NCBI GenBank assembly: GCA_029261855.1 | Contig: JAJDAN010000003.1 | Location: 1 to 64,000, forward strand | Direction: 5' to 3' | Origin: Deltaproteobacteria bacterium | Lineage (GTDB): Bacteria > Myxococcota_A > UBA9160 > UBA4427 | Length of the DNA stretch: 64,000 nt | Shown: one piece after another, positions 20,660 through 62,720 of the stretch | Layout of the letters: each line of letters starts with the position of its first letter | How positions within the stretch are numbered: the stretch's first letter is position 1 | Notes under the pieces: generated by a model | What the model saw: the letters and a program-made list of their open reading frames with translations, nothing else | Database searches by the model: none | Told to the model about the DNA's origin: nothing | Made by a program: the position numbers and the translations under genes

Positions 20660-20746
20660 TGGTGCCGGAGGCGGGATTCGAACCCGCACGGCCGTGAGAC
20701 CGGGGGATTTTGAATCCCCTGCGTATACCAGTTCCGCCACTCCGGC
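20660..20746 (-). tRNA. tRNA-Leu (anticodon CAA)
   Basis: 87-base class II tRNA with encoded CCA. The acceptor stem is GCCGGAG/CTCCGGC. The anticodon arm is GGGGA-TTCAAAA-TCCCC with CAA. The variable arm is long and the T arm GCGGG-TTCGAAT-CCCGC is perfect. On its strand TATGAT (forward 20758-20763) lies 11 bases upstream as a likely -10 element. It is divergent from tRNA-Ala. Confidence 0.96.
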
Positions 20747-20854: not shown

Positions 20855-20930
20855 GGGGCTGTAGCTCAGTTGGGAGAGTGCCTGAATGGCATTCAGGAGG
20901 TCGCGGGTTCGATTCCCGCCAGCTCCACCA
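20855..20930 (+). tRNA. tRNA-Ala (anticodon GGC)
   Basis: 76-base tRNA with encoded CCA. The acceptor is GGGGCTG/CAGCTCC with one G-U pair. The anticodon arm is CCTGA-ATGGCAT-TCAGG giving GGC. The T arm is GCGGG-TTCGATT-CCCGC. It is followed at once by three 53-bp palindromic repeats. Confidence 0.97.
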
Positions 20931-21222: not shown

Positions 21223-21672
21223 ATGGCAGATGAGCTGCTCTCTGCACCGCATGTTCTCGAGTACGACTACCGCCGGTCCCTCGGCGAGGTCCTGAGCCGT
21301 TTCTTCACCGGTCTGCGCGACCGCAAGATCCTCGGCGTCAAGACGAACGCCGGACGCGTGCTCGTGCCGCCGTCGGAATACGACCCCGAAAGTGGCGATG
21401 CCACTTCGGACGACTGGGTCGAGGTCGGCCCGGGTGGCGTGGTGAAGAGCTGGGCTTGGGTCAACGAGCCCCTCGGTCGGCACTTGCTCGATCACCCGTT
21501 CGCGTTCGCGCTGATCCAGCTCGACGGTGCGGACACGGCGCTGACCCACGCGGTCGACGCCGGTAGCGAGGCGAGCATGCGGACGGGGATGCGCGTCACC
21601 GCCCGCTTCGCGGACGACACCATCGGCGCCATCGGAGACATCGTTGCGTTCGTCCCCGAGGAGGGATCATGA
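21223..21672 (+). CDS. DUF35 OB-fold protein lacking zinc cysteines
   Basis: Protein of 149 residues related to DUF35/OB-fold partners of thiolase-like enzymes. The N-terminal helix (YDYRRSLGEVLSRFFTGLRD) and the OB strands (VVKSWAWVNEPL, PFAFALIQLDGADTAL, TGMRVTARFAD) are typical. The zinc-ribbon segment has no cysteine at all (GVKTNAGRVLVPPSEYDP), whereas the next gene keeps all four. ATG 21223 has GGAGG upstream; an ATG further upstream would add a basic leader across that Shine-Dalgarno. It overlaps the second DUF35 gene by four bases. These two plus two thiolase-like genes form one operon, so a hetero-complex with one thiolase-like partner is likely. Confidence 0.78.
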   Translation: MADELLSAPHVLEYDYRRSLGEVLSRFFTGLRDRKILGVKTNAGRVLVPPSEYDPESGDATSDDWVEVGPGGVVKSWAWVNEPLGRHLLDHPFAFALIQLDGADTALTHAVDAGSEASMRTGMRVTARFADDTIGAIGDIVAFVPEEGS

Positions 21673-22163
21673 GCGACAAGGAACCGGTCAAGAGCATCAT
21701 CACGCCCACGCGCACGGAGTACACGTACACGCCGGGGCCGTCCGCCCAGCGATCGCTGCGCGCCCTGGCCCGGGGAAAGCTCGTCGGCGAGATCTGCCCG
21801 AGCTGCAACCAGGTCTACTACCCCCCCAGCGGCGCCTGCGCGCGTTGTGGTGTCGCGACCCGCGACGAAGTCGAGGTTGCCGACAAGGGCACTGTCACCA
21901 CGTACGCGATCGTGCGAGTGCCGTCCGAGAACATCGACCTCGAGCTTCCCTACTGCACCGCGCACATCCTGCTCGACGGCGCAGACATCCCCTTCTTCGG
22001 TCTCATCCAGGAATGCGAATGGGACGCGGTCCGGATCGGGATGCGGGTCGAGGCCGTCTGGAAGCCCGAGTCCGAATGGGGCCTGAACGCCGAGAACATC
22101 CGCTACTTCCGTCCGACCGGCGAGCCTGACGTCCCGTTCGAGCAATTCAAGGAGCATCTGTGA
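21669..22163 (+). CDS. DUF35 zinc-ribbon/OB-fold protein
   Basis: Protein of 164 residues with an N-terminal helix, a rubredoxin-like zinc ribbon (CPSCNQVYYPPSGACARCG, near residues 43-61) and a C-terminal OB fold (TVTTYAIVRVP, PYCTAHILLDGADIPFFGL). DUF35 proteins bind SCP-x/thiolase-like enzymes, and in steroid side-chain degradation a DUF35 domain is essential for the Ltp2 retro-aldolase. It overlaps the preceding gene by four bases (ATGA) and the following thiolase-like gene by one (TGATG). That tight coupling suggests fixed stoichiometry within a complex. Confidence 0.85.
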   Translation: MSDKEPVKSIITPTRTEYTYTPGPSAQRSLRALARGKLVGEICPSCNQVYYPPSGACARCGVATRDEVEVADKGTVTTYAIVRVPSENIDLELPYCTAHILLDGADIPFFGLIQECEWDAVRIGMRVEAVWKPESEWGLNAENIRYFRPTGEPDVPFEQFKEHL

Positions 22164-23218
22164 TGCGTGATGTCGCCATCGCGTCCTTCGCCCAGACGAA
22201 GTACGTGCGCAACCAGGTCGAGCTGACCGAAGTCGACATGATCATCCCGGTGATCGGCGACGCGATCTCGCGATCGGGGATCCCGAAGTCGGAGATCGGC
22301 TTCTACTGCCACGGCAGCTCGGACTACATGGCCGGGCAATCCTTCGCGTTCGTCGGCGCCGTCGACGCGCTTGGCGCCTTCCCCCCCATCGCCGAGAGCC
22401 ACGTGGAGATGGACGGGGCCTGGGCGCTCTACGAGGCGTGGGTGAAGATCCAGTGCGGCGAGGTGGATTCCGCGCTGGTGTTCGGCTTCGGGCGAGCATC
22501 CATGGGGAAGCTGCGCGAGACGATGAATCTCCAGCTCGACCCCTACACGCTCGGTCCCCTGGGCATCGACTCCATCAGCCTCGCCGCCCTGCAGGCGCGG
22601 GCCCTGATCGATGCCGGCAAGACCAGCGAACGGCAGATGGCGGAGATCGCCATCCGCAACCGTCGCGTTGCCAAGGACAATCCCAACGCGCAGGTCACGG
22701 GAGACTTCGAGGTCGAGAAGCTGCTGGCCGAGCCGACGATCGTGTCTCCCCTGCGCAAGCACGACTGCCCCCCGATCTCCGACGGCATCAGCGCGGTGGT
22801 GCTGGCTGCGGGCAACCACATCGGTCGGGGCGAGAGCAAGCCGGTCTTCATCCGCGGCATCGACCACCGACTCGACTCGCACCAGCTCGGCGGCCGCGAC
22901 CTGACGCGCTCACCCTCGACGAAGCTGGCCGGCGAGCGGGCGGGAGTTCACGACGGACCGGTTGAATTCGCCGAGCTGCACGCTCCCTTCAGCCACCAGG
23001 AAGTGATCCTGCGCGAGGCACTGGGCCTGGGGGACGAAGTGGTGATCAACCCGTCGGGCGGCGCCCTCGCCGCCAATCCAATGATGACCGCGGGCTTGAC
23101 CCGGATTGGCGAGGCCGCCACACACATTGCGGCAGGCAAGGCCGGACGGGGCGTCGCGCACGCGACTTCCGGCCCGTGCCTGCAGCAGAACCTGATCTGC
23201 GTCCTGGAGGGTGAGTGA
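22163..23218 (+). CDS. SCP-x thiolase-like protein without nucleophilic Cys (1)
   Basis: Thiolase-fold protein of 351 residues, starting at ATG 22163 (a GTG three bases earlier is possible). The fold is evident from the N-terminus (VAIASFAQTKY) to the C-terminal VVINPSGGALAANPMMTAGL and HATSGPCLQQN. Where thiolases carry the nucleophilic Cys it reads ESHVEMDGAWALYEA, so normal thiolysis is unlikely. This matches retro-aldolases of the Ltp2 kind or other non-thiolytic family members. The gene is the third in a four-gene operon with two DUF35 proteins and a second Cys-less thiolase-like protein. The substrate may be a beta-hydroxyacyl-CoA with a tertiary carbon, which is inference. Confidence 0.82.
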   Translation: MRDVAIASFAQTKYVRNQVELTEVDMIIPVIGDAISRSGIPKSEIGFYCHGSSDYMAGQSFAFVGAVDALGAFPPIAESHVEMDGAWALYEAWVKIQCGEVDSALVFGFGRASMGKLRETMNLQLDPYTLGPLGIDSISLAALQARALIDAGKTSERQMAEIAIRNRRVAKDNPNAQVTGDFEVEKLLAEPTIVSPLRKHDCPPISDGISAVVLAAGNHIGRGESKPVFIRGIDHRLDSHQLGGRDLTRSPSTKLAGERAGVHDGPVEFAELHAPFSHQEVILREALGLGDEVVINPSGGALAANPMMTAGLTRIGEAATHIAAGKAGRGVAHATSGPCLQQNLICVLEGE

Positions 23219-24375
23219 TGCCCGAACGCTGCGCCGTCATCGGAGTCGGACAGACCCATCACACCGCCAAGCGGATCGACGTATCCCAGGCGGGCCTGCT
23301 GCGGGAGGCCGCCCTGCGGGCTCTCGAGGACGCGGGCTGCCAGTGGAGCGACATCGACGCCGTCGTCATCGGCAAGGCCCCTGACATGTTCGAGGGCGTG
23401 ATGATGCCCGAGCTGTTCCTCGCCGAGGCCCTCGGCTGCGTGGGCAAGCCCATGTTCCGCGTTCACACTGCGGGTAGCGTCGGCGGCACGACCGCCATCG
23501 TTGCCTCGCAGCTGGTCAAGAGCGGAGTGCACGGCCGCGTCCTGACGGTCGCGTACGAGAAGCAGTCCGAGTCGAACGCGATGTGGGCGCTGTCGATCAA
23601 GATCCCGTTTCGCCAGGCCATCGTCGCGGGCGCGGGCGGCTATTTCGCACCGCTCATCCGCGGGTACATGCAGCGCTCGAAGGCACCGGAGGACGTGGGC
23701 ATCCGGGTCGCCCTCAAGGACCGACAGAACGCGCTCAAGAACCCCTACGCGCACCTGAAGTTTCCCGACATCGACTTCGATCAGGTCGCCAATTCACCGA
23801 TGCTGTGGGATCCGATCCGCTACCTCGAGACCTGCCCGTCTTCGGACGGGGCGTGCGCGCTCGTCATCGCAGACGAGAAGCACGCCGCCAAGGCCCCGAA
23901 GCAGCCGGCCTGGATCCAGGCGACCGCCATGCGGTCGGAGCCCACCCAGTTCGCCGGCCGCGATACGGTCAACCCTCAGGCCAGCCGTGACGCCGCCGAC
24001 GAGCTCTGGAAGAAGGCCGAGATCACGAACCCGCGCGAGGAGATCGACTGCTGCGAGATCTACGTCCCCTTCAGCTGGTTCGAGCCCATGTGGATGGAGA
24101 GCCTGCGCTTTGCGGAAGAGGGAAGCGGCTGGAAGATGACCTACGAAGGCGCGACGGCACTCGACGGCGATCTCCCGGTCAACATGTCGGGTGGTGTGCT
24201 GTCGTCGAATCCGATCGGGGCATCCGGCATGCTGCGCTTTGCCGAGGCCGCCAATCAGGTTCGCGGAGAGGCCGGTGAGCATCAGGTCCCGGGCGCGAAG
24301 CGCGCTCTGGGACACGCGTACGGGGGTGGATCCCAGTTCTTCTCGATGTGGGTCGTCGCGCAGGACCCGCTCTAG
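23218..24375 (+). CDS. SCP-x thiolase-like protein without nucleophilic Cys (2)
   Basis: Thiolase-fold protein of 385 residues, last gene of the operon, overlapping the previous stop by one base. It begins CAVIGVGQTHHTAKR and ends with the family segment MSGGVLSSNPIGASG and LGHAYGGGSQFFSMWV. At the position of the thiolase nucleophile it reads RVHTAGSVGGTTA with no cysteine. It is closest in feel to the Ltp2/Ltp-type proteins of sterol side-chain catabolism. With its Cys-less sister it may form a heteromer, or each may pair with one DUF35 protein. Its stop overlaps the stop of the convergent TetR gene by three bases. Confidence 0.82.
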   Translation: MPERCAVIGVGQTHHTAKRIDVSQAGLLREAALRALEDAGCQWSDIDAVVIGKAPDMFEGVMMPELFLAEALGCVGKPMFRVHTAGSVGGTTAIVASQLVKSGVHGRVLTVAYEKQSESNAMWALSIKIPFRQAIVAGAGGYFAPLIRGYMQRSKAPEDVGIRVALKDRQNALKNPYAHLKFPDIDFDQVANSPMLWDPIRYLETCPSSDGACALVIADEKHAAKAPKQPAWIQATAMRSEPTQFAGRDTVNPQASRDAADELWKKAEITNPREEIDCCEIYVPFSWFEPMWMESLRFAEEGSGWKMTYEGATALDGDLPVNMSGGVLSSNPIGASGMLRFAEAANQVRGEAGEHQVPGAKRALGHAYGGGSQFFSMWVVAQDPL

Positions 24376-25007
24376 CCCCGATCCGTACCGGGCGGGCGCA
24401 GGCCGGGGAGAAGCAACGCGAGCTGCTGTGACGAGCTCGCGTGGCGGTCGTCCCCGGGCGAGGCGCCGCGCGCGATGGCCATGCCAAAGACGCTGGTGAG
24501 CACGAGCGTCACGACGCGTTCGACGGGGATGTCGCTGCGGATCTCGCCGCGCGCGACCAGCTCTTCGAACAGCGAGAGCAACGCCTCGAACACGACGTGG
24601 CCCTGGGGCCTCTCGTGCGGGTCGAGCGGCGTGCGGAGCTGCATGGCGACGGTCTCGCGAACCAGCTCCGGTGAACCTTCGTCCTCCGGCTCCATCGCCT
24701 CGAGCAGACCGCCCAGGATCGACTCGAGGGACGCGCCCTGCCCCCGCAGCGCCACCAGCCCGCTCGCCAGCTCGGCCTCCCGTCGGGACACCAACTCGAG
24801 CAGGACGTCTTCCTTGCTCGGGAAGTGGAAGTAGAAGGTGCCCCGCACGACCCCGGCGGCCTCGGCGATGGCCGGGATCTGGGCCTCCCCGAAGCCCACG
24901 CGCCGGAACTCGGCGAGCGCGGCCTGGAACAGGCGCTCGCGCGTCTCGACGCGCTGACGCTCGCGTTGGCTGGTAGGGGCGCTCTCTTCGAGGCTGCTTG
25001 CAGGCAT
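24372..25007 (-). CDS. TetR family repressor of the RND operon
   Basis: Regulator of 211 residues. Residues ~20-70 carry a TetR HTH (ETRERLFQAALAEFRRVGFG, AIAEAAGVVRGTFYFHFPSK). The C-terminal ligand domain is variable. ATG 25007 is preferred over a start nine codons upstream because the longer version would run into the operator region. It is divergent from an adaptor-pump operon of RND type, with overlapping palindromes in the gap, which is the usual layout for a pump repressor released by its substrate. It is distinct from the TetR at 34754-35350, and its operator differs. Confidence 0.88.
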   Translation of the reverse strand: MPASSLEESAPTSQRERQRVETRERLFQAALAEFRRVGFGEAQIPAIAEAAGVVRGTFYFHFPSKEDVLLELVSRREAELASGLVALRGQGASLESILGGLLEAMEPEDEGSPELVRETVAMQLRTPLDPHERPQGHVVFEALLSLFEELVARGEIRSDIPVERVVTLVLTSVFGMAIARGASPGDDRHASSSQQLALLLPGLRPPGTDRG

Positions 25008-25027
25008 GACAGAGAAGTCATTTACAG

Positions 25028-25047
25028 AAGTCATTGACTTATGTCAA
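25028..25047. promoter_or_regulatory. Overlapping palindromes, likely TetR operator
   Basis: AAGTCA-T-TGACTT (25028-25040) overlaps TTGAC-TTAT-GTCAA (25034-25047), and another AAGTCAT lies at 25016. They sit 21 bases upstream of the TetR start and 110 bases before the adaptor start. TTGACT can also serve as a -35 for the pump operon. An operator for the divergent TetR protein is the simplest reading. Confidence 0.65.
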
Positions 25048-25156
25048 CGAAAGTCTACCCTCCGGAACGTCGATCTATCCTTGGGTCGGCAACCGCGCCC
25101 ATTGCCAGCAGGACGAGCTGTCGGATCGCTTCGGCATCCGCACCCGAGGACTTCCC

Positions 25157-26449
25157 GTGAGACGCCGCTTCCAACCGAGCGCCAAGGCACTTGCGCCCAT
25201 CTGCGTCTTCCTGGTCTCGGCCGCCGTGTTCGGCGTCATGGTCGTCACGCGCCCCTCCGCTGAATCCACCCGACCCGGGCCCGTCGCTCCCGTCGTCAGC
25301 GTGGTGCGCGTCCAGCCCGAACGGGTGCGGCTGCCGATCGCCGCCCAGGGCACCGTCGAGCCGCGAACCGAGAGCGACCTGGTGACGGAAGTCGCCGGGC
25401 GCGTCGTATGGGCGTCGCGACAGCTGGCGGCCGGCGGCTTCTTCGAGGCCGACGAGGTGCTGCTGCGCATCGACCCTCGGGACTATGAGGTGGCGCTCGA
25501 GGGTGCACGCGCCTCACTCGCCCGCGCCGAGAGCGACCTCGCGCATGCTGAGGCCGATCTCGCGCGCGAGCATTCCATGCGAAAGAGCGGCGCCTCCAGC
25601 CGTGCCCGACTCGAAGACGCCGAACGCGACTTCGCACGCGCCAAGGCGGGACTTCGGGAGTCCAGAGTGCAGGTCCGCCGAGGTGAGCTCGATCTCGAAC
25701 GCTGCCAGATCCGCGCTCCCTTCGCGGGGCGCGTTCGCGACAAGCATGTCGATCTCGGTCAGTACGTCACGCCCGGAGCGCCGGTGGCGCGACTCTTCTC
25801 CGTCGACTACGCGGAGATCCGCCTCCCCATTTCCGACGCGGACCTCGCCTTCCTGGATCTGCCGCTGACGGCGAAGCTCGAGACCGCGAGCGGAGTGGGC
25901 GACGCCGTCGCCGACTCCGGGCCGCTGGTGACCCTTTCCGCCGACTTCGCGGGCGAGCGGCGCGCGTGGGCCGGTCGTGTCGTTCGCACCGAAGGCGCGC
26001 TCGATCGGCAGACCCGCATGGTGAACGTCGTCGCGCGGGTCGACGACCCCTACGGCCTGGTCGACGCGCACTCGGACTCTGCCCCGCTGCGCTCGGACTC
26101 TGCCCCGCTGCGCTCGGACTCCTCTCCACTGCCCATCGGGCTCTTTGTCGAAGCGTCCATCGAAGGGCGCCCCTTCGACGGAATCTTCGAGCTGCCGCGG
26201 TCCGCGCTCCGGCGTCGGAACACTGTCTGGGTGGTGGACGACGACGGCCGCCTGGAGCACCGAGCCGTCCAGGTCCTGCGATCCGTCGGTGACCGCACCT
26301 TCATCCGGTCCGGACTCCAGCCCGGCGAACGTGTGATCACCTCCGCCCTCGATGCGGCACTCGATGGCATGCAGGTCCAGAGCATCGAGATTCCGGGCTC
26401 CCGCGCCTTGCCGGCGGTACCTGCCGCCACCGCCGACACGACGTCATGA
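25157..26449 (+). CDS. RND efflux periplasmic adaptor
   Basis: Membrane-fusion protein of 430 residues, GTG start 25157 with GAGGA seven bases upstream. An N-terminal membrane anchor (LAPICVFLVSAAVFGVMVV) is followed by a lipoyl half (VEPRTESDLVTEVAGRVV), a coiled-coil hairpin (~residues 100-175), the second lipoyl half (CQIRAPFAGRVRDKHVDLG) and beta-barrel domains. It would link the inner-membrane pump to an outer-membrane channel. No outer-membrane channel gene is present. A 21-bp repeat (26071-26133) adds a Ser/Asp/Pro linker (SDSAPLR repeated) in the beta-barrel domain. It overlaps the pump gene by four bases. Confidence 0.92.
   Translation: MRRRFQPSAKALAPICVFLVSAAVFGVMVVTRPSAESTRPGPVAPVVSVVRVQPERVRLPIAAQGTVEPRTESDLVTEVAGRVVWASRQLAAGGFFEADEVLLRIDPRDYEVALEGARASLARAESDLAHAEADLAREHSMRKSGASSRARLEDAERDFARAKAGLRESRVQVRRGELDLERCQIRAPFAGRVRDKHVDLGQYVTPGAPVARLFSVDYAEIRLPISDADLAFLDLPLTAKLETASGVGDAVADSGPLVTLSADFAGERRAWAGRVVRTEGALDRQTRMVNVVARVDDPYGLVDAHSDSAPLRSDSAPLRSDSSPLPIGLFVEASIEGRPFDGIFELPRSALRRRNTVWVVDDDGRLEHRAVQVLRSVGDRTFIRSGLQPGERVITSALDAALDGMQVQSIEIPGSRALPAVPAATADTTS
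26071..26133 (+). repeat. 21-bp in-frame repeat inside the adaptor gene
   Basis: CTCGGACTCTGCCCCGCTGCG at 26071-26091 and 26092-26112, with a degenerate third copy to 26133. It encodes SDSAPLR-SDSAPLR-SDSSPLP, an insertion between beta strands of the adaptor. It is a multiple of three, so the frame is kept. Confidence 0.9.
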
Positions 26450-29400
26450 ACGGCGCAATCGCCTGGTTCGCACGCAACTCCGTTGCTGCGAACCTGATGA
26501 TGATGGTGATCGTCCTGAGCGGTCTCGCGACCATGCCCCGCATCGTCCAGGAGTTGGTCCCCGAGATCGAGCTCGACTACGTGACGGTGACGACCGCCTA
26601 CCCGGGCGCATCTCCGTCCGAGGTCGAGGCGTCCATCACGAACCGCGTCGAAGAGCAGCTCGACGGACTCGCGGGCATCAAGCGTGTGACCTCCACTTCC
26701 GCCGAGGGCATGAGTGCGGTGTCGGTCCAGCTTCAGTCCGGAGAGGACGTACGCCGCCGGGTCGAGGACATCCGATCTGCCGTCGACGCCATCGACACCT
26801 TTCCGGAGGAATCCGAAGAAACCGTCATCAAGCAGGTGGAGATCGACAGCCAGGTCTTGCTGGTCGCCGTGTCCGGGGCGGCCGACGAGTTCGCCCTCAA
26901 GCGCATCGGCCAGCGCGTCCGCGACGAGCTCGTCGACCTGCCCGGGATCAGCGAGGCAGAGCTCACCCTGGCGCGGGACTACGAGCTCACCGTCGAGGTG
27001 TCCGAGTACAACCTTCGCCGCTTCGGAATCACCTTCGACGACGTCGTGACCGCGGTCCGGCGTTCGTCTCTGGACCTGCCGGGCGGCTCGGTCAAGACGA
27101 GCGGCGGCGAGATCATGCTGCGGGCCAAGGGGCAGGCTTACGCGGGCTCCGAGTTCGAACAGATCGCCCTGGTGAACCGACGGGACGGGACACGTCTCAC
27201 CCTGGGCGACGTTGCCACGATCGTCGACGGGTTTGCGGAGAGCGACCGGAAAGCGCGCTTCGACGGCGAGCCGGCCGTGATGATCCGCGTCAACCGGTCT
27301 GGAGACCAGAAGGCGCTCGCGATATCCGACGAGATCCGCGCGTACATCGAGCGGTCGAAAGCGGTCCTGCCGGACGGAATCTCGCTCACCGTCTGGAACG
27401 ACAAGTCGACCGTACTCGGCGACCGCCTCGAGACCCTGCTGCGCAATGCCCGCGGCGGCTTCCTGCTCGTCGTCTTGATCCTCGCGCTGTTCCTGCGGCT
27501 ACGACTAGCCTTCTGGGTGAGCCTGGGCGTGCCGATCTCGTTCCTCGGCGCGGTCGCGGTGATGCCGCATCTCGACATGACCATCAACTTCATCTCGTTG
27601 ATGGCCTTCATCGTCGTACTCGGCATCGTGGTGGACGACGCCATCGTCGTCGGAGAGAACACCCACACCGAACAGGAGCGCAGCGGCGAGAAGCTGCGCG
27701 GCGCGATTCGGGGTGCCCAGCAGATCGTCGTCCCGGTCACCTTCGGCGTACTCACGACGATCGCGGCCTTCGCCCCGCTGCTCTTCATCCCCGGACCCAT
27801 GGGTCGCATGACGCGTGTCGTCCCCGTCATCGTCATCAGCTGTCTGATCTTCTCGCTGATCGAGTCGATGTTCATCCTGCCGGCCCACCTGGGCCACGGG
27901 AAGAAGCCCCTGGCCGATGGGCCGACCACCCGGGTCTCGAAGGCCTGGAAGCGCTTCCAGGACGGCATCGCCCGCGGGCTCTCCCGCTTCATCGACAACG
28001 GCTACGGCCCGGTGCTGCAGAAGGCGATGCGCTGGCGCTACCTGACCGTCAGCATCGCCGTGTCCCTCCTTCTCATCACGAGCGGACTCACGCTGGGCGG
28101 ACACCTGAAGTTCGTCTTCATCGAAGAGGTCGAGGCCGACATCATCATCGCCAGCCTGACCATGAACCCGGGAACTCCCGCGACGGTAACCGCCGCCACC
28201 CTCGAACGGATGGAGAGCGCACTCGAAGCGCTGCGCGACGAAGTCGACGCCGCGAACCCCGACGGCCCCACCGTGTTCCCACACGTGATGACCTCCGTCG
28301 CAGCCCAGCCCATGCGGGGCTCGCAGTCGCCGATCGGGGGCGGGGGAGCCAGCGCGAGCAACCTGGGCCAGATGCAGGTCGAGGTCGTCGGCTTCCACGA
28401 TCGCGACGTCGCCGTTCCCGAGCTCGCGAGACGCTGGCGCGAGAAGCTCGGGCCGGTCCCGGGCGTGGACGAGCTGAAGTTCGAGTCTTCGCTGTTCAGT
28501 GCCGGCTCTCCCCTGGAGATCCGTCTCGTCGGCTCCGATCTCGACGCCCTACGCGCAGCCGCGAAGCAGGTCAAACAACAGCTTTCGGCCTACGCGGGCG
28601 TTTACGAAGTGAACGATTCGTTTCGCGGAGGCAAGCAGGAGCTCGCGTATCAGATCCGACCGTCGGCCGAGGCGCTCGGGATCACCCTGCACGACCTCGC
28701 CCAACAGCTGCGCCAGGCGTTCTACGGCGCAGAGGCCCAGAGCGTCCAGCGCGGACGCGACGAAGTGAAGGTCATGGTGCGCTACCCCGAGGCGGAACGT
28801 CGCTCGTTGACGGACGTCGAGCAGATGCGGATCCGGCGCCCCGACGGTACGGAAGTCCCATTCCACAGGGTGGCCGAGTCCGATCTCACGACGGGCTTCT
28901 CGACCATCGGGCACGTGGATCGGAAACGCGTGGTCACGGTGACCGCAAATGTGGACGCCGCCGTCGCCAACACCAACGAGATCGTGCGCGACCTCCAGGG
29001 CGGATCCCTCAGCGAGACCTTGTCCGCCTTCCCGGGGATCCAGTTCAGCTTCGAGGGAGAGCAGTCGGAGCAGCGCGACTTCACCCGGGCGATGAGCATC
29101 GGGCTGCTGTCCGCTCTCTTCGTGATTTACGTCCTGCTCGCGATTCCGCTGGGCTCCTACGTGCAACCCTTCATCATCATGTCCGCGATCCCCTTCGGCT
29201 TCGTGGGCGCGGCGTGGGGTCACCTCGTGCTCGGCCACAACCTGACGATGTACTCGGTGATCGGCCTGGTCGCGCTGTCCGGCGTGGTGGTCAACGCGAG
29301 CCTCGTGCTCGTCGACTACGTGAACGGGCTGGTGAAAGACGGGCTGCCCATCCCCGAAGCGGTCGCCCAGGCGGGGCGCGCCCGCTTCCGCGCGATCCTG

Positions 29401-29664
29401 CTCACCTCGCTCACGACCTTCGCAGGACTGACGCCGATGATGCTCGAGACCAGCATCCAGGCGCAGTTCATGATCCCCATGGCGATCTCCATCGCCTTCG
29501 GCGTGCTCTTCGCCAGCTTGATCACGCTGTTCCTCGTGCCGGCAGTCTACCTGGTCCTCGAAGACGTGCGGACGGCGATCGAGCGCGTCCGCAGCGGGAG
29601 AGCCGGGCGAACCGCCGCGCCCGCTCAGCCGGGCTCGGCCTCGTCGCCCACGCTTTCGACATAG
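26446..29664 (+). CDS. RND efflux transporter (HAE1-like)
   Basis: Proton-driven inner-membrane pump of 1072 residues with the duplicated RND architecture: 12 predicted TM helices and two large periplasmic loops. TM1 is in NSVAANLMMMVIVLSGLAT. TM4 contains the proton-relay pair in LGIVVDDAIVVGEN (~residue 398). The second half repeats with SALFVIYVLLAIPLGSY and VIGLVALSGVVVNASLVL. It overlaps the adaptor by four bases and so is co-translated. Control is probably by the divergent TetR. The substrate could be hydrophobic compounds, possibly lipids related to the neighbouring catabolic genes. Confidence 0.94.
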   Translation: MNGAIAWFARNSVAANLMMMVIVLSGLATMPRIVQELVPEIELDYVTVTTAYPGASPSEVEASITNRVEEQLDGLAGIKRVTSTSAEGMSAVSVQLQSGEDVRRRVEDIRSAVDAIDTFPEESEETVIKQVEIDSQVLLVAVSGAADEFALKRIGQRVRDELVDLPGISEAELTLARDYELTVEVSEYNLRRFGITFDDVVTAVRRSSLDLPGGSVKTSGGEIMLRAKGQAYAGSEFEQIALVNRRDGTRLTLGDVATIVDGFAESDRKARFDGEPAVMIRVNRSGDQKALAISDEIRAYIERSKAVLPDGISLTVWNDKSTVLGDRLETLLRNARGGFLLVVLILALFLRLRLAFWVSLGVPISFLGAVAVMPHLDMTINFISLMAFIVVLGIVVDDAIVVGENTHTEQERSGEKLRGAIRGAQQIVVPVTFGVLTTIAAFAPLLFIPGPMGRMTRVVPVIVISCLIFSLIESMFILPAHLGHGKKPLADGPTTRVSKAWKRFQDGIARGLSRFIDNGYGPVLQKAMRWRYLTVSIAVSLLLITSGLTLGGHLKFVFIEEVEADIIIASLTMNPGTPATVTAATLERMESALEALRDEVDAANPDGPTVFPHVMTSVAAQPMRGSQSPIGGGGASASNLGQMQVEVVGFHDRDVAVPELARRWREKLGPVPGVDELKFESSLFSAGSPLEIRLVGSDLDALRAAAKQVKQQLSAYAGVYEVNDSFRGGKQELAYQIRPSAEALGITLHDLAQQLRQAFYGAEAQSVQRGRDEVKVMVRYPEAERRSLTDVEQMRIRRPDGTEVPFHRVAESDLTTGFSTIGHVDRKRVVTVTANVDAAVANTNEIVRDLQGGSLSETLSAFPGIQFSFEGEQSEQRDFTRAMSIGLLSALFVIYVLLAIPLGSYVQPFIIMSAIPFGFVGAAWGHLVLGHNLTMYSVIGLVALSGVVVNASLVLVDYVNGLVKDGLPIPEAVAQAGRARFRAILLTSLTTFAGLTPMMLETSIQAQFMIPMAISIAFGVLFASLITLFLVPAVYLVLEDVRTAIERVRSGRAGRTAAPAQPGSASSPTLST

Positions 29665-30234: not shown

Positions 30235-31413
30235 ATGCAGATCGACTTCACCCGCGAGCAGAAGAAGTTCCAGGGCGAGATTCGCGCCTACTTCGAAGCC
30301 ATGATGACCGAAGCGCTCGCCACCGAACTCCAGAGCGGGGGCGAGGGCGGTGGCCCCGAATACCGGAGAGCGCTCGAAAAGATGGGCGCGGACGGCCTGC
30401 TGGGCGTCGGCTGGCCGGTCGAGTACGGCGGTCAGGGGCGCTCGCTGATCGAACAGTACATCTTCGCCGACGAAGTCCAGCGCGCAGGCTTCCCCCTCCC
30501 CTTCCTCACCCTCGGCACCGTCGGACCGACCATCCAGCGCTTCGGCACCGAAGAGCAGAAGCAATTCTTCCTGCCGAAGATCCTCGCCGGCAAGCTCCAC
30601 TTCGCGATCGGCTACTCCGAGCCCGGGGCCGGCACCGATCTCGCGAGTCTCACCACCAGCGCGGTCCGCGTCGGCGATGAATGGGTCATCAACGGACAGA
30701 AGATGTGGACGAGCCTCGCGGACTACGCGGACTACGTCTGGCTCGCCGCCCGCACCGACCCGAATACGAAGAAGCACAAGGGCATCTCGATGTTCCTGGT
30801 CCCCGTGACGGCCGAGGGCTTCAAGATCACTCCCATCCAGACCGTCGGCGGCGTCCGGACGAATGCGACCTTCTACGACGACGTTCGCGTCCCCCTGGAG
30901 GCCTTGATCGGCGGAGAGAACAACGGCTGGTCGCTGATCACCGGCCAGCTCAACCACGAACGCGTCTCGTTGATGAACGTCGGGCCGATGCACCGGTTGC
31001 TCAACGACGTGACCGGCTGGGCGCGCGAGACCGCGCACGGAGGAGGCCGGGTCATCGACCAGCCCTGGGTGCAGGCCAACCTCGCGAAGGTCTACGCCAA
31101 GCTCGCGGTGCTGCGGCTGATGAACTGGAAGCAGGCCTGGGCATCGACCCAGGGCAGTCTGCACCCCGCCGACTCGTCCTGCATCAAGGTCTTCGGCAGC
31201 GAGTTCTACATCGAGGGCTACCGGATGCTGCTCGAGGTGCTCGGCGCGCGCGCCAACCTGCTCGACGACTCGCCGGGCGCGGTGCTCAAGGGCCGCGTCG
31301 ACCGCTCGTACCGGAACGCACTGATCCTGACCTTCGGCGGAGGGACCAACGAGGTCCAGCGGGACATCATCGCCATGGCCGGTCTGGGCATGCCTCACTA
31401 CAAGGTGGGTTGA
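30235..31413 (+). CDS. Acyl-CoA dehydrogenase, subunit 1 of a likely heteromer
   Basis: Flavoenzyme of 392 residues that introduces an alpha-beta double bond in an acyl-CoA. It retains the FAD/substrate segment GYSEPGAGTDLASL and KMWTSLADYADYVWLAART, with C-terminal LTFGGGTNEVQRDIIAMAGLG. The next gene, four bases downstream, is a second dehydrogenase that lacks the SEPGAG motif. This pairing resembles the alpha2-beta2 enzymes of steroid side-chain catabolism (ChsE/FadE pairs), in which the active site is shared. A KstR-like site lies just upstream. The substrate is unknown, but the pairing argues against simple fatty acids. Confidence 0.88.
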   Translation: MQIDFTREQKKFQGEIRAYFEAMMTEALATELQSGGEGGGPEYRRALEKMGADGLLGVGWPVEYGGQGRSLIEQYIFADEVQRAGFPLPFLTLGTVGPTIQRFGTEEQKQFFLPKILAGKLHFAIGYSEPGAGTDLASLTTSAVRVGDEWVINGQKMWTSLADYADYVWLAARTDPNTKKHKGISMFLVPVTAEGFKITPIQTVGGVRTNATFYDDVRVPLEALIGGENNGWSLITGQLNHERVSLMNVGPMHRLLNDVTGWARETAHGGGRVIDQPWVQANLAKVYAKLAVLRLMNWKQAWASTQGSLHPADSSCIKVFGSEFYIEGYRMLLEVLGARANLLDDSPGAVLKGRVDRSYRNALILTFGGGTNEVQRDIIAMAGLGMPHYKVG

Positions 31414-31417
31414 TCCG

Positions 31418-32560
31418 ATGGACTTCTCCTTCAGCGATGAGCAGCAGGAGCTCCGAGAGCTCGCTCGCAAGATCCTGGGCGACCTCGTGACGAACGAGCG
31501 CCTGAAGGAAATCGAGACCGCGACGCCGGTCTTCGACCCGCAGCTGTGGCGCGAGCTGGGACGTGCGAATCTCCTCGGTCTCGCCATCCCCGAAGAGCAC
31601 GGCGGACTCGGCTTCGGGGTCTTCGAGCTGTACATGCTCTTGCAGGAGATCGGACGCGCCGTCGCCCCGGTCCCCGTGTATGCAACGGCGCTGCTTGGCG
31701 GCCTGCCTCTGGAGCGTTTCGGCAGCGACGCGCAGAAGGCAACCTGGCTCCCCCGAGTGGCCAGCGGTGAGGCGATCCTGACGGCGGCGCTCGTCGAGCT
31801 CGATGCCGCGAGTGTCACCGACGTCTCGACCACGGCTCGCATCGAGGGGGACGGGGCGGTGCTCAACGGCGAGAAGAGCCTGGTCCCTGCGGCCCAGCTT
31901 GCGGACCGCATCATCGTCCCGGCGCGCGATGGGGACGACGTGGGCCTGTACCTCGTGGATCCGAAGTCCGACGGCGTTCGTCTCCAGGTGCAGACGACGA
32001 CCGACCGACAGCCCTACGCGCACCTCGTACTCGAGGACGTCACCGCGGAACCCCTGCCCGGGACGGGCCCGGGCCGCAGCGCGCTCGAGTGGCTCGTCGA
32101 CCGAGCAACGGTGGGCTTGTGCGCGATCCAGCTCGGCGTGGGCGAACGGGCCCTGGAGATGACCGCGGACTACTCCCGGGAGCGGGTGCAGTTCGACCGC
32201 CCCATCGGCAGCTTCCAGGCGGTCCACCAGCGGGCGGGCGACGCGTTCATCCAGATGGAAGCGGCGCGCCTCAGCTTCCTCGAAGCGGCCATGCAGCTCG
32301 CGAGCGGAGCGGGACAGCGCGCGAGGGAAGCCACCGCCGATGCCGTCGCCGTTGCCAAGTACTGGGCTTCAGAGGGCGGTCAGTTCACCGCCTACGCGTG
32401 CCAGCATCTACACGGCGGCATCGGCATCGACGTGGACTACCCGCTGCACCGCTACTTCATCTGGTCGATGCAGCTCGAGCACGGCCTCGGTTGTGCGAGC
32501 GAGCAGCTCCAGCAACTGGGAGCTCGAATCGCAGAGCGCGGGATCCCTCGACCGTCCTGA
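31418..32560 (+). CDS. Acyl-CoA dehydrogenase, subunit 2 with degenerate N-terminal motif
   Basis: Acyl-CoA dehydrogenase-fold protein of 380 residues. The N-terminal and middle domains are conserved (FSFSDEQQELRELARKIL, LLGLAIPEEHGGLG), but where active enzymes have a SEPGAGSD stretch it reads ALVELDAASVTDVS. The C-terminal domain is intact (SRERVQFDRPIGSFQAVHQR, CQHLHGGIGIDVDYPLHRYF). It therefore probably works with the preceding dehydrogenase as a heteromer. It ends 28 bases from the convergent SDR gene, with no clear bidirectional terminator between them. Confidence 0.86.
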   Translation: MDFSFSDEQQELRELARKILGDLVTNERLKEIETATPVFDPQLWRELGRANLLGLAIPEEHGGLGFGVFELYMLLQEIGRAVAPVPVYATALLGGLPLERFGSDAQKATWLPRVASGEAILTAALVELDAASVTDVSTTARIEGDGAVLNGEKSLVPAAQLADRIIVPARDGDDVGLYLVDPKSDGVRLQVQTTTDRQPYAHLVLEDVTAEPLPGTGPGRSALEWLVDRATVGLCAIQLGVGERALEMTADYSRERVQFDRPIGSFQAVHQRAGDAFIQMEAARLSFLEAAMQLASGAGQRAREATADAVAVAKYWASEGGQFTAYACQHLHGGIGIDVDYPLHRYFIWSMQLEHGLGCASEQLQQLGARIAERGIPRPS

Positions 32561-33552: not shown

Positions 33553-35350
<1,798 letters not shown>

Positions 35351-35405
35351 GGGTTCTGGGGATTCCGGGGCCGGGTCCGGAGACCCGAAGTTTCGGGCCC
35401 GGTAT

Positions 35406-35441
35406 TGAAACACGTTTCACTTCGGAATGAAACACGTTCCA
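35406..35441. promoter_or_regulatory. Two KstR-like operators upstream of the TetR operon
   Basis: TGAAACACGTTTCA (35406-35419, perfect inverted repeat) and TGAAACACGTTCCA (35428-35441) both fit TnnAACnnGTTnnA. Their centres are 22 bp apart, about two helical turns, so two dimers could bind on one face. They lie 56-91 bases upstream of the TetR start codon and just past the MarR stop. Confidence 0.8.
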
Positions 35442-61529: not shown

Positions 61530-62720
61530 TCAGTCGAGCCGCTCGATGATCGTCCCGGTACCGAGCCCACCACCGCAGCACATCGAGATCAGCGCGTAGC
61601 GCTGCTTCGTGCGCTCGAGTTCGTGCAGGGCCGTCGTGAGTAGCCGGTCCCCGGTGGCACCGGTCGGATGGCCCAGCGCAATGGCGCCGCCGTTCGGGTT
61701 CACGCGTGCGGCGTCGGCGCCCACGGCCTTCTGCCACGCCAGCACGACGCTCGCGAAGGCCTCATTCACCTCGAAGACCGACATGTCGTCGATGCCGAGC
61801 CCCGTCCGTGCGAGCAGCTTCTCCGTCGCCGGGATCGGCCCCTTGAGCATGGTCACCGGATCGACCCCGACGATCGTCGTGTACACGATGCGCGCCCGCG
61901 GCTTCAGCCCCAGACGCTCGACGCCCGCCGCGTTCGCCACCAGCACCGCGGAAGCGCCGTCGGTGATCTGCGACGAGGTACCGGCGGTGTGGACGCCGCC
62001 TTCCATGACGGCCTTCAGGGTCGCGAGCTTCTCGAGACTGGTCTCGCGCAGGCCCTCGTCACGAGAGATGGTGACGCTTTCCTCGGTGGGCTTGCCATCG
62101 TCGTCCAGGACCGGCGCCGCGACGGGCACCACCTCGCGATCGAAGCGACCTTCTGCCCAGGCCTTCCCGGCCAGCTCCTGACTCCGCAACCCGAAGCCGT
62201 CCGTGTCGTCGCGCGTGATGCCGAATTCTTCCGCGATCATCTCCGCACCCTGGAACTGGCTCTTGAAGGCGTACTGCTGGAAGTAGCTCTTGGCGATCGG
62301 GCGGCCGTGGTGCTCGAAGTTCGCCCCCAACGGGATGCGGCTCATCATCTCGATCCCGCAGCTGAGGGCCACGTCTTCGAGGCCCGACCCGACGAGCCCG
62401 GCGGCCAGGGTGTTGGCCTGCTGACTCGAGCCGCACTGGCTGTCGACGGTGGTCGACGGAACCTCCAAGGGAAGTCCCGCAGCGAGCCAGGCGTTGCGCG
62501 TGACGTTGAAGGACTGCTCTCCCACCTGGGACACACAGCCGCCGATCACCTGATCGATGGCCAGGGGATCGATCCCGGAACGCTCGACGACCGCCTTCTG
62601 TACCGCGCCGAGGAGATCCGTGGGATGCAGGCTCGAAAGCCCTCCTCCCCGGCGACCCAACGGGCTACGCACCGCCTCGATGATGAAGACTTCCTTGCTG
62701 GCAGCGGACGGTCCGGACAT
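61530..62720 (-). CDS. Acetyl-CoA acyltransferase (thiolase)
   Basis: Thiolase of 396 residues. The nucleophilic Cys is in STTVDSQCGSSQQANTL. The C-terminal [19 protein letters not shown] (His) and [17 protein letters not shown] (second Cys) are complete. It is close in sequence to the thiolase at 33553-34728, suggesting paralogues with overlapping substrate ranges. There is no KstR-like site upstream. It would release acetyl-CoA or propionyl-CoA in beta-oxidation. The gene for an unknown protein follows on the same strand upstream. Confidence 0.93.
   Translation of the reverse strand: MSGPSAASKEVFIIEAVRSPLGRRGGGLSSLHPTDLLGAVQKAVVERSGIDPLAIDQVIGGCVSQVGEQSFNVTRNAWLAAGLPLEVPSTTVDSQCGSSQQANTLAAGLVGSGLEDVALSCGIEMMSRIPLGANFEHHGRPIAKSYFQQYAFKSQFQGAEMIAEEFGITRDDTDGFGLRSQELAGKAWAEGRFDREVVPVAAPVLDDDGKPTEESVTISRDEGLRETSLEKLATLKAVMEGGVHTAGTSSQITDGASAVLVANAAGVERLGLKPRARIVYTTIVGVDPVTMLKGPIPATEKLLARTGLGIDDMSVFEVNEAFASVVLAWQKAVGADAARVNPNGGAIALGHPTGATGDRLLTTALHELERTKQRYALISMCCGGGLGTGTIIERLD

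Follow-up and report, generated by a model that had tools for sequence, protein, structure and literature searches.

A conserved four-gene cassette of thiolase-fold and DUF35 proteins in a Deltaproteobacteria genome as a probable Ltp4/Ltp3-type sterol side-chain aldolase with unequal halves

The genes ltp3 and ltp4 are both reportedly required for the degradation of C24-branched sterols, a result credited by others to a 2012 study by Wilbrink. A 2019 review, with reference to Wilbrink 2012, speaks of a 'heteromeric aldol-lyase (Ltp3-Ltp4)' by which beta-sitosterol and campesterol are cleaved at their C24 branch (PMC6678751). Two further enzymes, Ltp2-ChsH2 of Thermomonospora curvata (6OK1) and Sal-Shy of Comamonas testosteroni (9MYR), join a thiolase-fold protein to a DUF35 partner, and the same combination of subunits occurs in the benzoylsuccinyl-coenzyme A (CoA) thiolase BbsAB, the PhlABC acyltransferase and the archaeal thiolase/3-hydroxy-3-methylglutaryl-CoA (HMG-CoA) synthase. 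According to excerpts of PMC12329534, the backbone of a Gly at the Cys position of Sal binds the substrate hydroxyl, with Tyr302 as base and Cys304 as acid, while Ltp2 uses Tyr294 as base and Tyr344 as acid. Here we describe a cassette of four genes, D1, D2, T1 and T2, within the window, the whole stretch of 64,000 nucleotides analysed from contig JAJDAN010000003.1 of the Deltaproteobacteria bacterium assembly GCA_029261855.1. The heteromeric Ltp3-Ltp4 aldol-lyase is known already, and the cassette is a myxobacterial copy of this known sterol-degrading set. New here are the obligate association of the four proteins, the asymmetry seen in the thiolase-fold pair as well as in the DUF35 pair, and the absence of either proton donor known from Ltp2 and Sal. 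The enzyme is relevant to the production of steroid drug precursors from phytosterols.

D1-D2-T1-T2 lie on the plus strand with each junction overlapping by 1-4 bases (ATGA at D1/D2):

21223..21672, plus strand: D1, 149 aa, DUF35-type, OB fold only, degenerate zinc ribbon (KTNAGRVLVPPSEYDPESG); OB_ChsH2_C 40.3 bits, no zf-ChsH2
21669..22163, plus strand: D2, 164 aa, DUF35, zinc ribbon CPSC-x10-CARC and OB fold; OB_ChsH2_C 45.4 bits, zf-ChsH2 35.9 bits
22163..23218, plus strand: T1, Ltp4-type thiolase-fold protein, start ATG 22163 or GTG 22160; NCBIfam PRK07937
23218..24375, plus strand: T2, Ltp3-type thiolase-fold protein, proposed catalytic subunit, start ATG 23218 or GTG 23215; NCBIfam PRK08313

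Residue numbers of T1 and T2 count the upstream GTG as residue 1. The initial annotation had coupled the thiolase-fold genes to two DUF35 genes; these do lie directly upstream and overlap, but D1 has only the OB fold and no zinc ribbon.

T1 is a full-length match to PRK07937 (519.5 bits against a curated cut-off of 419) and T2 to PRK08313 (681 bits against 514). The BbsAB cut-offs lie far above the scores of D2 (19.9 of 250 bits), T1 (64.4 of 750) and T2 (112.2 of 750), which separates T1 and T2 from BbsB. In a Saccharomonospora homologue of the locus the cassette is preceded by a FadD19-like ligase and an EchA19 equivalog above its cut-off, and in a Saccharopolyspora locus a FadA5-type thiolase lies near the cassette. 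Published excerpts place ltp4, ltp3 and echA19 in one cluster in Mycobacterium and Saccharopolyspora, with fadD19 also in the Mycobacterium table (PMC6593523, PMC8708139). Because the Saccharomonospora gene neighbours match these clusters, synteny indirectly identifies T1 as an Ltp4-type and T2 as an Ltp3-type protein, in the same NCBIfam families as the actinobacterial pair (Rv3523, Rv3522; Rhodococcus rhodochrous DSM 43269). The likeness extends to the ltp4-then-ltp3 order and the sterol gene neighbours, and the aligned homologues of both proteins are Cys-less. The window copy differs in belonging to a myxobacterium-type genome and in having D1 and D2 as separate genes, whereas the adjacent Rv3521, annotated as a conserved hypothetical protein, is presumably a fused D1-D2 protein.

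Active-site positions were placed by HMMER alignments to solved SCP2-type thiolases, and residue conservation was counted over 124 paired T1/T2 homologues:

22406..22408, plus strand: T1 Glu83, nucleophile position; E in 123/124, D in 1/124
22979..22990, plus strand: T1 HAPF (274-277), HDCF counterpart; His274 in only 94/124
23075..23077, plus strand: T1 Asn306, GHP His position; N in 114, H in 8 and R in 2 of 124
23473..23475, plus strand: T2 Gly87, nucleophile position; G in 124/124
24061..24072, plus strand: T2 YVPF (283-286), HDCF counterpart; Tyr283 and Pro285 in 124/124
24208..24210, plus strand: T2 Asn332, GHP His position; 124/124

The nucleophile Cys of the SCP2 thiolases (VNNNCSTG) falls on Glu83 of T1 (SHVEMDGAW) and Gly87 of T2 (RVHTAGSVGG), and both proteins carry Pro for the second catalytic Cys (HDCF motif) and Asn for the GHP His; MAFFT shifts a one-residue gap at this last site, and the His is still absent. 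The absence of the nucleophilic Cys from both open reading frames (ORFs), as claimed in the initial annotation, is thus confirmed, and the alignments show neither a substitute Cys at the nucleophile site of T1 or T2 nor one from elsewhere filling the active-site position. Conservation of Glu83 and Gly87 across the homologues indicates that the loss reflects neither chance nor sequencing error. T1 and T2 therefore have none of the three features of a canonical or SCP2-type thiolase (nucleophile Cys, second Cys, GHP His), and, judged by these residues, neither is able to act as a thiolase of known kind. A Cys elsewhere in the proteins was also considered as nucleophile and rejected: Cys340, in the last loop of T1, is Cys in only 95/124 homologues, and the T2 motifs contain no Cys.

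The catalytic Tyr of Ltp2 (YDHF) and of Sal (YDCY) has its aligned counterpart in Tyr283 of T2. Both aldolase hallmarks, Gly and Tyr, are present in T2 in 124/124 homologues, and T1 as a rule has neither (Glu, and mostly His). Since T2 carries Gly87 and Tyr283, it is likely to be the catalytic half. The full YDHF/YDCY motif with its general acid occurs in neither protein (YVPF, Pro285 and Asn332 in T2; HAPF and Asn306 in T1). In T2, Pro285 and Asn332 replace Cys304 of Sal and Tyr344 of Ltp2, the latter equivalence being derived from residue spacing and the GHP alignment rather than a direct alignment with Ltp2, so the proton donor would differ from both known ones. Candidates are the invariant or near-invariant T2 residues His84 and Tyr369 or, provided that they reach across, acidic residues of T1. 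Compared with Ltp2-ChsH2, the cassette shares the thiolase fold, the DUF35 partner, the missing nucleophilic Cys and a Tyr first in the HDCF motif, but T2 reads YVPF instead of YDHF, has Asn in place of the general acid Tyr344, and comes with a second, unlike thiolase-fold protein and two DUF35 proteins. Compared with Sal-Shy, T2 shares the fold, the catalytic Tyr at the HDCF position and the Gly at the Cys position (for CtSal, PMC12329534, in excerpt), but has Pro285 for the essential Cys304 and no MaoC fusion, and T1 has no Sal counterpart. T1 has its own invariant residues (E79, S80, H81, D85, H334 and Q342), which indicates that it is not a decaying gene.

We think it fairly likely that the four genes are the Ltp4/Ltp3 sterol side-chain cassette and that their products form one hetero-oligomer, with T2 as the catalytic half performing a retro-aldol cleavage. 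Starting from the observed gene order, families, residues, predicted folds, obligate pairing and sterol-gene neighbourhood, we infer the oligomeric state, the substrate and the role of each residue as follows. T1 (Ltp4) and T2 (Ltp3) would form a central thiolase-fold dimer with the DUF35 proteins on its flanks, an arrangement resembling the alpha-beta-beta-alpha core of Sal and Ltp2, except that its two halves differ. T2 would bind a beta-hydroxyacyl-CoA in which the C24 branch renders the hydroxyl tertiary, Gly87 at the former Cys position would make space for this hydroxyl and bind it, and Tyr283 would take its proton, whereupon the C-C bond would be broken by retro-aldol cleavage. Reprotonation of the acyl-CoA enolate would then yield a short acyl-CoA and a sterol ketone. 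T1, as a conserved non-equivalent partner, would shape the site and may complete or regulate it. The cassette thus probably encodes one mixed-subunit aldolase that shortens the branched side chains of plant or algal sterols.

The distribution of the genes was followed in a scan with one genome per species, which gave at least 594 pattern matches and at least 581 T1 relatives, and the best 80 loci were kept. Going by their record titles, these loci come from Myxococcota or Deltaproteobacteria, Actinomycetota, Chloroflexi and Proteobacteria, among other groups. All 80 loci have T2 after T1 on one strand, all 80 have D2 and 77 have D1 (the remaining 3 are cut by a contig end), and D1 and D2 form a single ORF in 28/77 loci, many of them actinobacterial. 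A second sample comprised 60 relatives of the genome of the window, that genome included. Here, 54 T1 places above the cut-off were found in 48 genomes; T2 follows 2 to 17 bases downstream (between profile ends) in 52 of them, while in the remaining 2 the contig ends there. Six leftover T2 places are at contig ends, are fragments, or lie beside a partial T1. D1-D2-T1-T2 is thus an obligate four-gene cassette across several phyla.

Some loci depart from the common form. Saccharopolyspora endophytica has about 1.6 kb between T1 and T2, the sole such gap among the best 80 loci. In some of the relatives a second T1, more diverged and scoring about 450 to 474 bits, was seen at G012:C70, G028:C158, G029:C8, and G035:C342 and C216, with its own T2 adjoining where the contig allows, which suggests two cassette types. 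A plasmid collection yielded only six close T1 relatives.

The two halves of the cassette are unequal. T2 has 132/386 positions conserved at 97% or more and T1 has 73/352, and the CxxC...CxxC zinc motif is found in 0/78 D1 homologues. The stretch before the Cys site carries a net charge of -2 to -4 in 81/81 T1 and of +2 in 81/81 T2 proteins; in 17 paralogues it ranges from -2 to +2. In thiolases, the strand before the Cys helix pairs across the dimer axis. The sheet order of Sal is 1,5,4,2,3 (PMC12329534, in excerpt), so that strand 3, which directly precedes the Cys helix, lies at the edge of the sheet. If the corresponding strand of T1 and T2 does pair across the dimer axis, their opposite charges favour a mixed dimer.

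To place the pair among its relatives, 19 stretches were fetched and yielded 17 PF22691-type paralogues, two (L141 and L142) being dropped because the T2-profile match was below 50 bits or absent; another of the stretches (L126), truncated where its contig ends, entered the motif table and not the tree. The nucleophile Cys is absent from 11 of the 17, kept in 5 and replaced by Ser in 1. Missing Cys alone was therefore rejected as a distinguishing feature of T1 and T2, and the fixed pairing is the striking one. At least 11 Cys-less YD- or YE-motif proteins besides T1 and T2 are encoded in the genome (L124-L140), most of them beside a DUF35 gene, and they make up a large set of probable Ltp2/Sal-like aldolases. 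In a tree from which the solved Ltp2 and Sal sequences were left out, T1 and T2 are sisters (95/92) and fall outside the 11 YD-type paralogues (100/99), and the T1 and T2 profiles are linked with an hhalign probability of 99.9. Approximately unbiased (AU) tests gave p 0.227 (T1+T2+YD), 0.163 (T2+YD) and 0.099 (T1+YD), the branches are long, and a single Cys loss is compatible with the data. The likening to Ltp2 in the initial annotation is accordingly a loose one: T1 and T2 stand outside the YD-motif clade of the genome, although other groupings were not firmly rejected by the AU tests. A separate origin of the T1/T2 aldolase from that of Ltp2 and Sal is possible.

AlphaFold2 models built from homologue alignments (mean predicted local distance difference test score 90.7 for T1 and 88.8 for T2) are thiolase folds. 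The nearest solved structures are archaeal thiolases of thiolase/HMG-CoA synthase/DUF35 complexes, 6et9 for T1 (Z 44.6, root-mean-square deviation 2.2, 346 aligned) and 6esq for T2 (Z 53.5, root-mean-square deviation 2.2, 374 aligned); BbsAB, PhlABC and the archaeal complex match T2 with Z about 49 to 54. Ltp2 (6ok1) scores Z 36.5 against T1 and 46.4 against T2, and Sal (9myr) 37.4 and 45.9. No solved Ltp3 or Ltp4 structure was found among the structures searched with T1 and T2, and literature searches on Ltp3/Ltp4 structure or DUF35 partnership returned no structural or biochemical paper on Ltp3-Ltp4.

The link to sterols comes from the surroundings of the cassette and from co-occurrence. The region 6 to 12 kb downstream contains a FadA5-type thiolase, a regulator nearest to KstR and a pair of acyl-CoA dehydrogenases:

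30235..32560, plus strand: two adjoining acyl-CoA dehydrogenases
33553..34728, minus strand: FadA5-type steroid 3-ketoacyl-CoA thiolase (PRK07850), 606.8 bits, cut-off 515
34754..35413, minus strand: TetR regulator, nearest KstR, 109.7 bits, below the curated cut-off of 280

In the 60 genomes, cassette and FadA5 occur together in 48, the cassette only in 3, FadA5 only in 4 and neither in 5 (Fisher p 0.001, optimistic because the genomes are related), with the cassette scored as present in 51/60, fragments included. At 10/54 T1 places the contig also carries FadA5 no more than 16 kb from T1. Phytosterol induces ltp3 and ltp4 of Mycobacterium about 97-fold, as given in an excerpt of PMC6593523. 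A second FadA5-type steroid 3-ketoacyl-CoA thiolase lies in the window at 61536-62690 (minus strand, 555.6 bits, above the cut-off), and a third on contig C11.

Several observations weigh against a sterol-cleaving T1/T2 hetero-oligomer with T2 as its catalytic half. T2 is without the D and the H or C of YDHF/YDCY and without both known general acids, and the many invariant residues of T1 may signify a catalytic role of its own. The complete zinc motif is present in only 27/81 D2 proteins, many of which keep three Cys, often with Asp as the fourth residue. Covariation between T1 and T2 was weak in 124 pairs (98 after removal of near-copies, effective number about 59), and equivalent positions were not enriched (p 0.07 to 0.45); one block, T1 50-130 by T2 54-145, accounted for 7 of the 25 strongest pairs where 0.9 would be expected, but was chosen post hoc and is not used as evidence. 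The association of the cassette with KshA_C in the 60 genomes was not significant (p 0.09, subject to the same relatedness). Finally, obligate pairing and D1-D2 fusion would also be expected if DUF35 proteins linked two separate homodimers, as they do in archaeal thiolase/HMG-CoA synthase.

This last arrangement can be stated as an alternative, in which a T2 homodimer is the aldolase, a T1 homodimer is a second, non-aldolase enzyme or a CoA-binding unit, and DUF35 bridges them as in the archaeal complex or PhlABC. The folds match such DUF35-scaffolded complexes (6esq/6et9, Z 44 to 54; 5m3k, Z 40 to 49), and a scaffolding role of DUF35 between thiolase-fold enzymes has been described (PMC12329534, in excerpt). 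The opposite charges on the strand before the Cys site, each without exception, suit a mixed dimer if, as in thiolases, that strand lies on the dyad, and the grouping of T1 with T2 in the tree is what a duplicated dimer would give, an argument weakened by the long branches; we regard bridged homodimers as rather unlikely. The initial annotation had offered two options, a heteromeric aldolase or two successive cleavages by Ltp2-like pairs. The first is the best fit, T1 and T2 never being unpaired away from contig ends, D1-D2 fusions being frequent and the hallmarks being confined to T2, and it is already in print (PMC6678751, in excerpt). For the second, T1 and T2 would be separate homodimers, each with its own DUF35 protein, carrying out successive retro-aldol cleavages. 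It would account for two thiolase-fold and two DUF35 genes in one cassette and for the many invariant residues around the T1 motifs, but T1 has Glu for Gly and a His274 that varies, D1 homologues have no zinc ligands, the fusion joins D1 to D2 and not to a thiolase-fold protein, and the fixed T1-T2 order without loners is better explained by one enzyme. Since T1 is without the hallmarks and D1 without the zinc ligands, the T1/D1 and T2/D2 pairs are not equivalent, and we consider successive cleavages unlikely.

Other alternatives keep a single aldolase and change its history or its substrate. A thiolase-derived aldolase that evolved separately from Ltp2 and Sal could have become a mixed dimer by duplication, with one working, composite site in which Gly87 and Tyr283 of T2 are joined across the dimer by a general acid from the invariant acidic stretch of T1 (Glu79, His81, Glu83, Asp85), and with the zinc-less DUF35 protein serving the inactive half; we consider this as doubtful as the bridged homodimers. 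An enzyme of the same type might instead act on another branched beta-hydroxyacyl-CoA, such as an isoprenoid or hopanoid side chain. The cassette also occurs in Streptomyces, Acidimicrobiia and Chloroflexi, not all of which are known to degrade sterols, and the KshA_C result would agree with such a substrate. However, the FadA5-type 'steroid' thiolase 10 kb away, the KstR-nearest regulator, the FadA5 co-occurrence and the phytosterol induction of ltp3 and ltp4 point to sterols, and we judge a non-sterol substrate distinctly unlikely. That T1 or T2 is still a thiolase with a Cys from elsewhere would be suggested by the thiolase fold and family names only, and by Cys340 of T1; with all three catalytic residues replaced in both proteins and Cys340 itself variable, it is scarcely credible. 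The analysis thus points to T2 as the catalytic half of what would be, judging from the comparisons made here, an enzyme consisting of a conserved four-protein set in several phyla.

The remaining neighbours of the cassette are of other kinds. A TetR gene on the opposite strand (24372-25034) abuts the end of T2 and begins a group (24372-29664) that continues with a membrane-fusion-protein-like protein and a resistance-nodulation-division (RND)-type efflux pump, these last two named from their translations only. These efflux genes possibly serve the export of sterol intermediates, or possibly have no relation to the cassette. Upstream of the cassette are a tRNA-Leu (caa) at 20660-20746 on the minus strand and a tRNA-Ala (ggc) at 20855-20930 on the plus strand.

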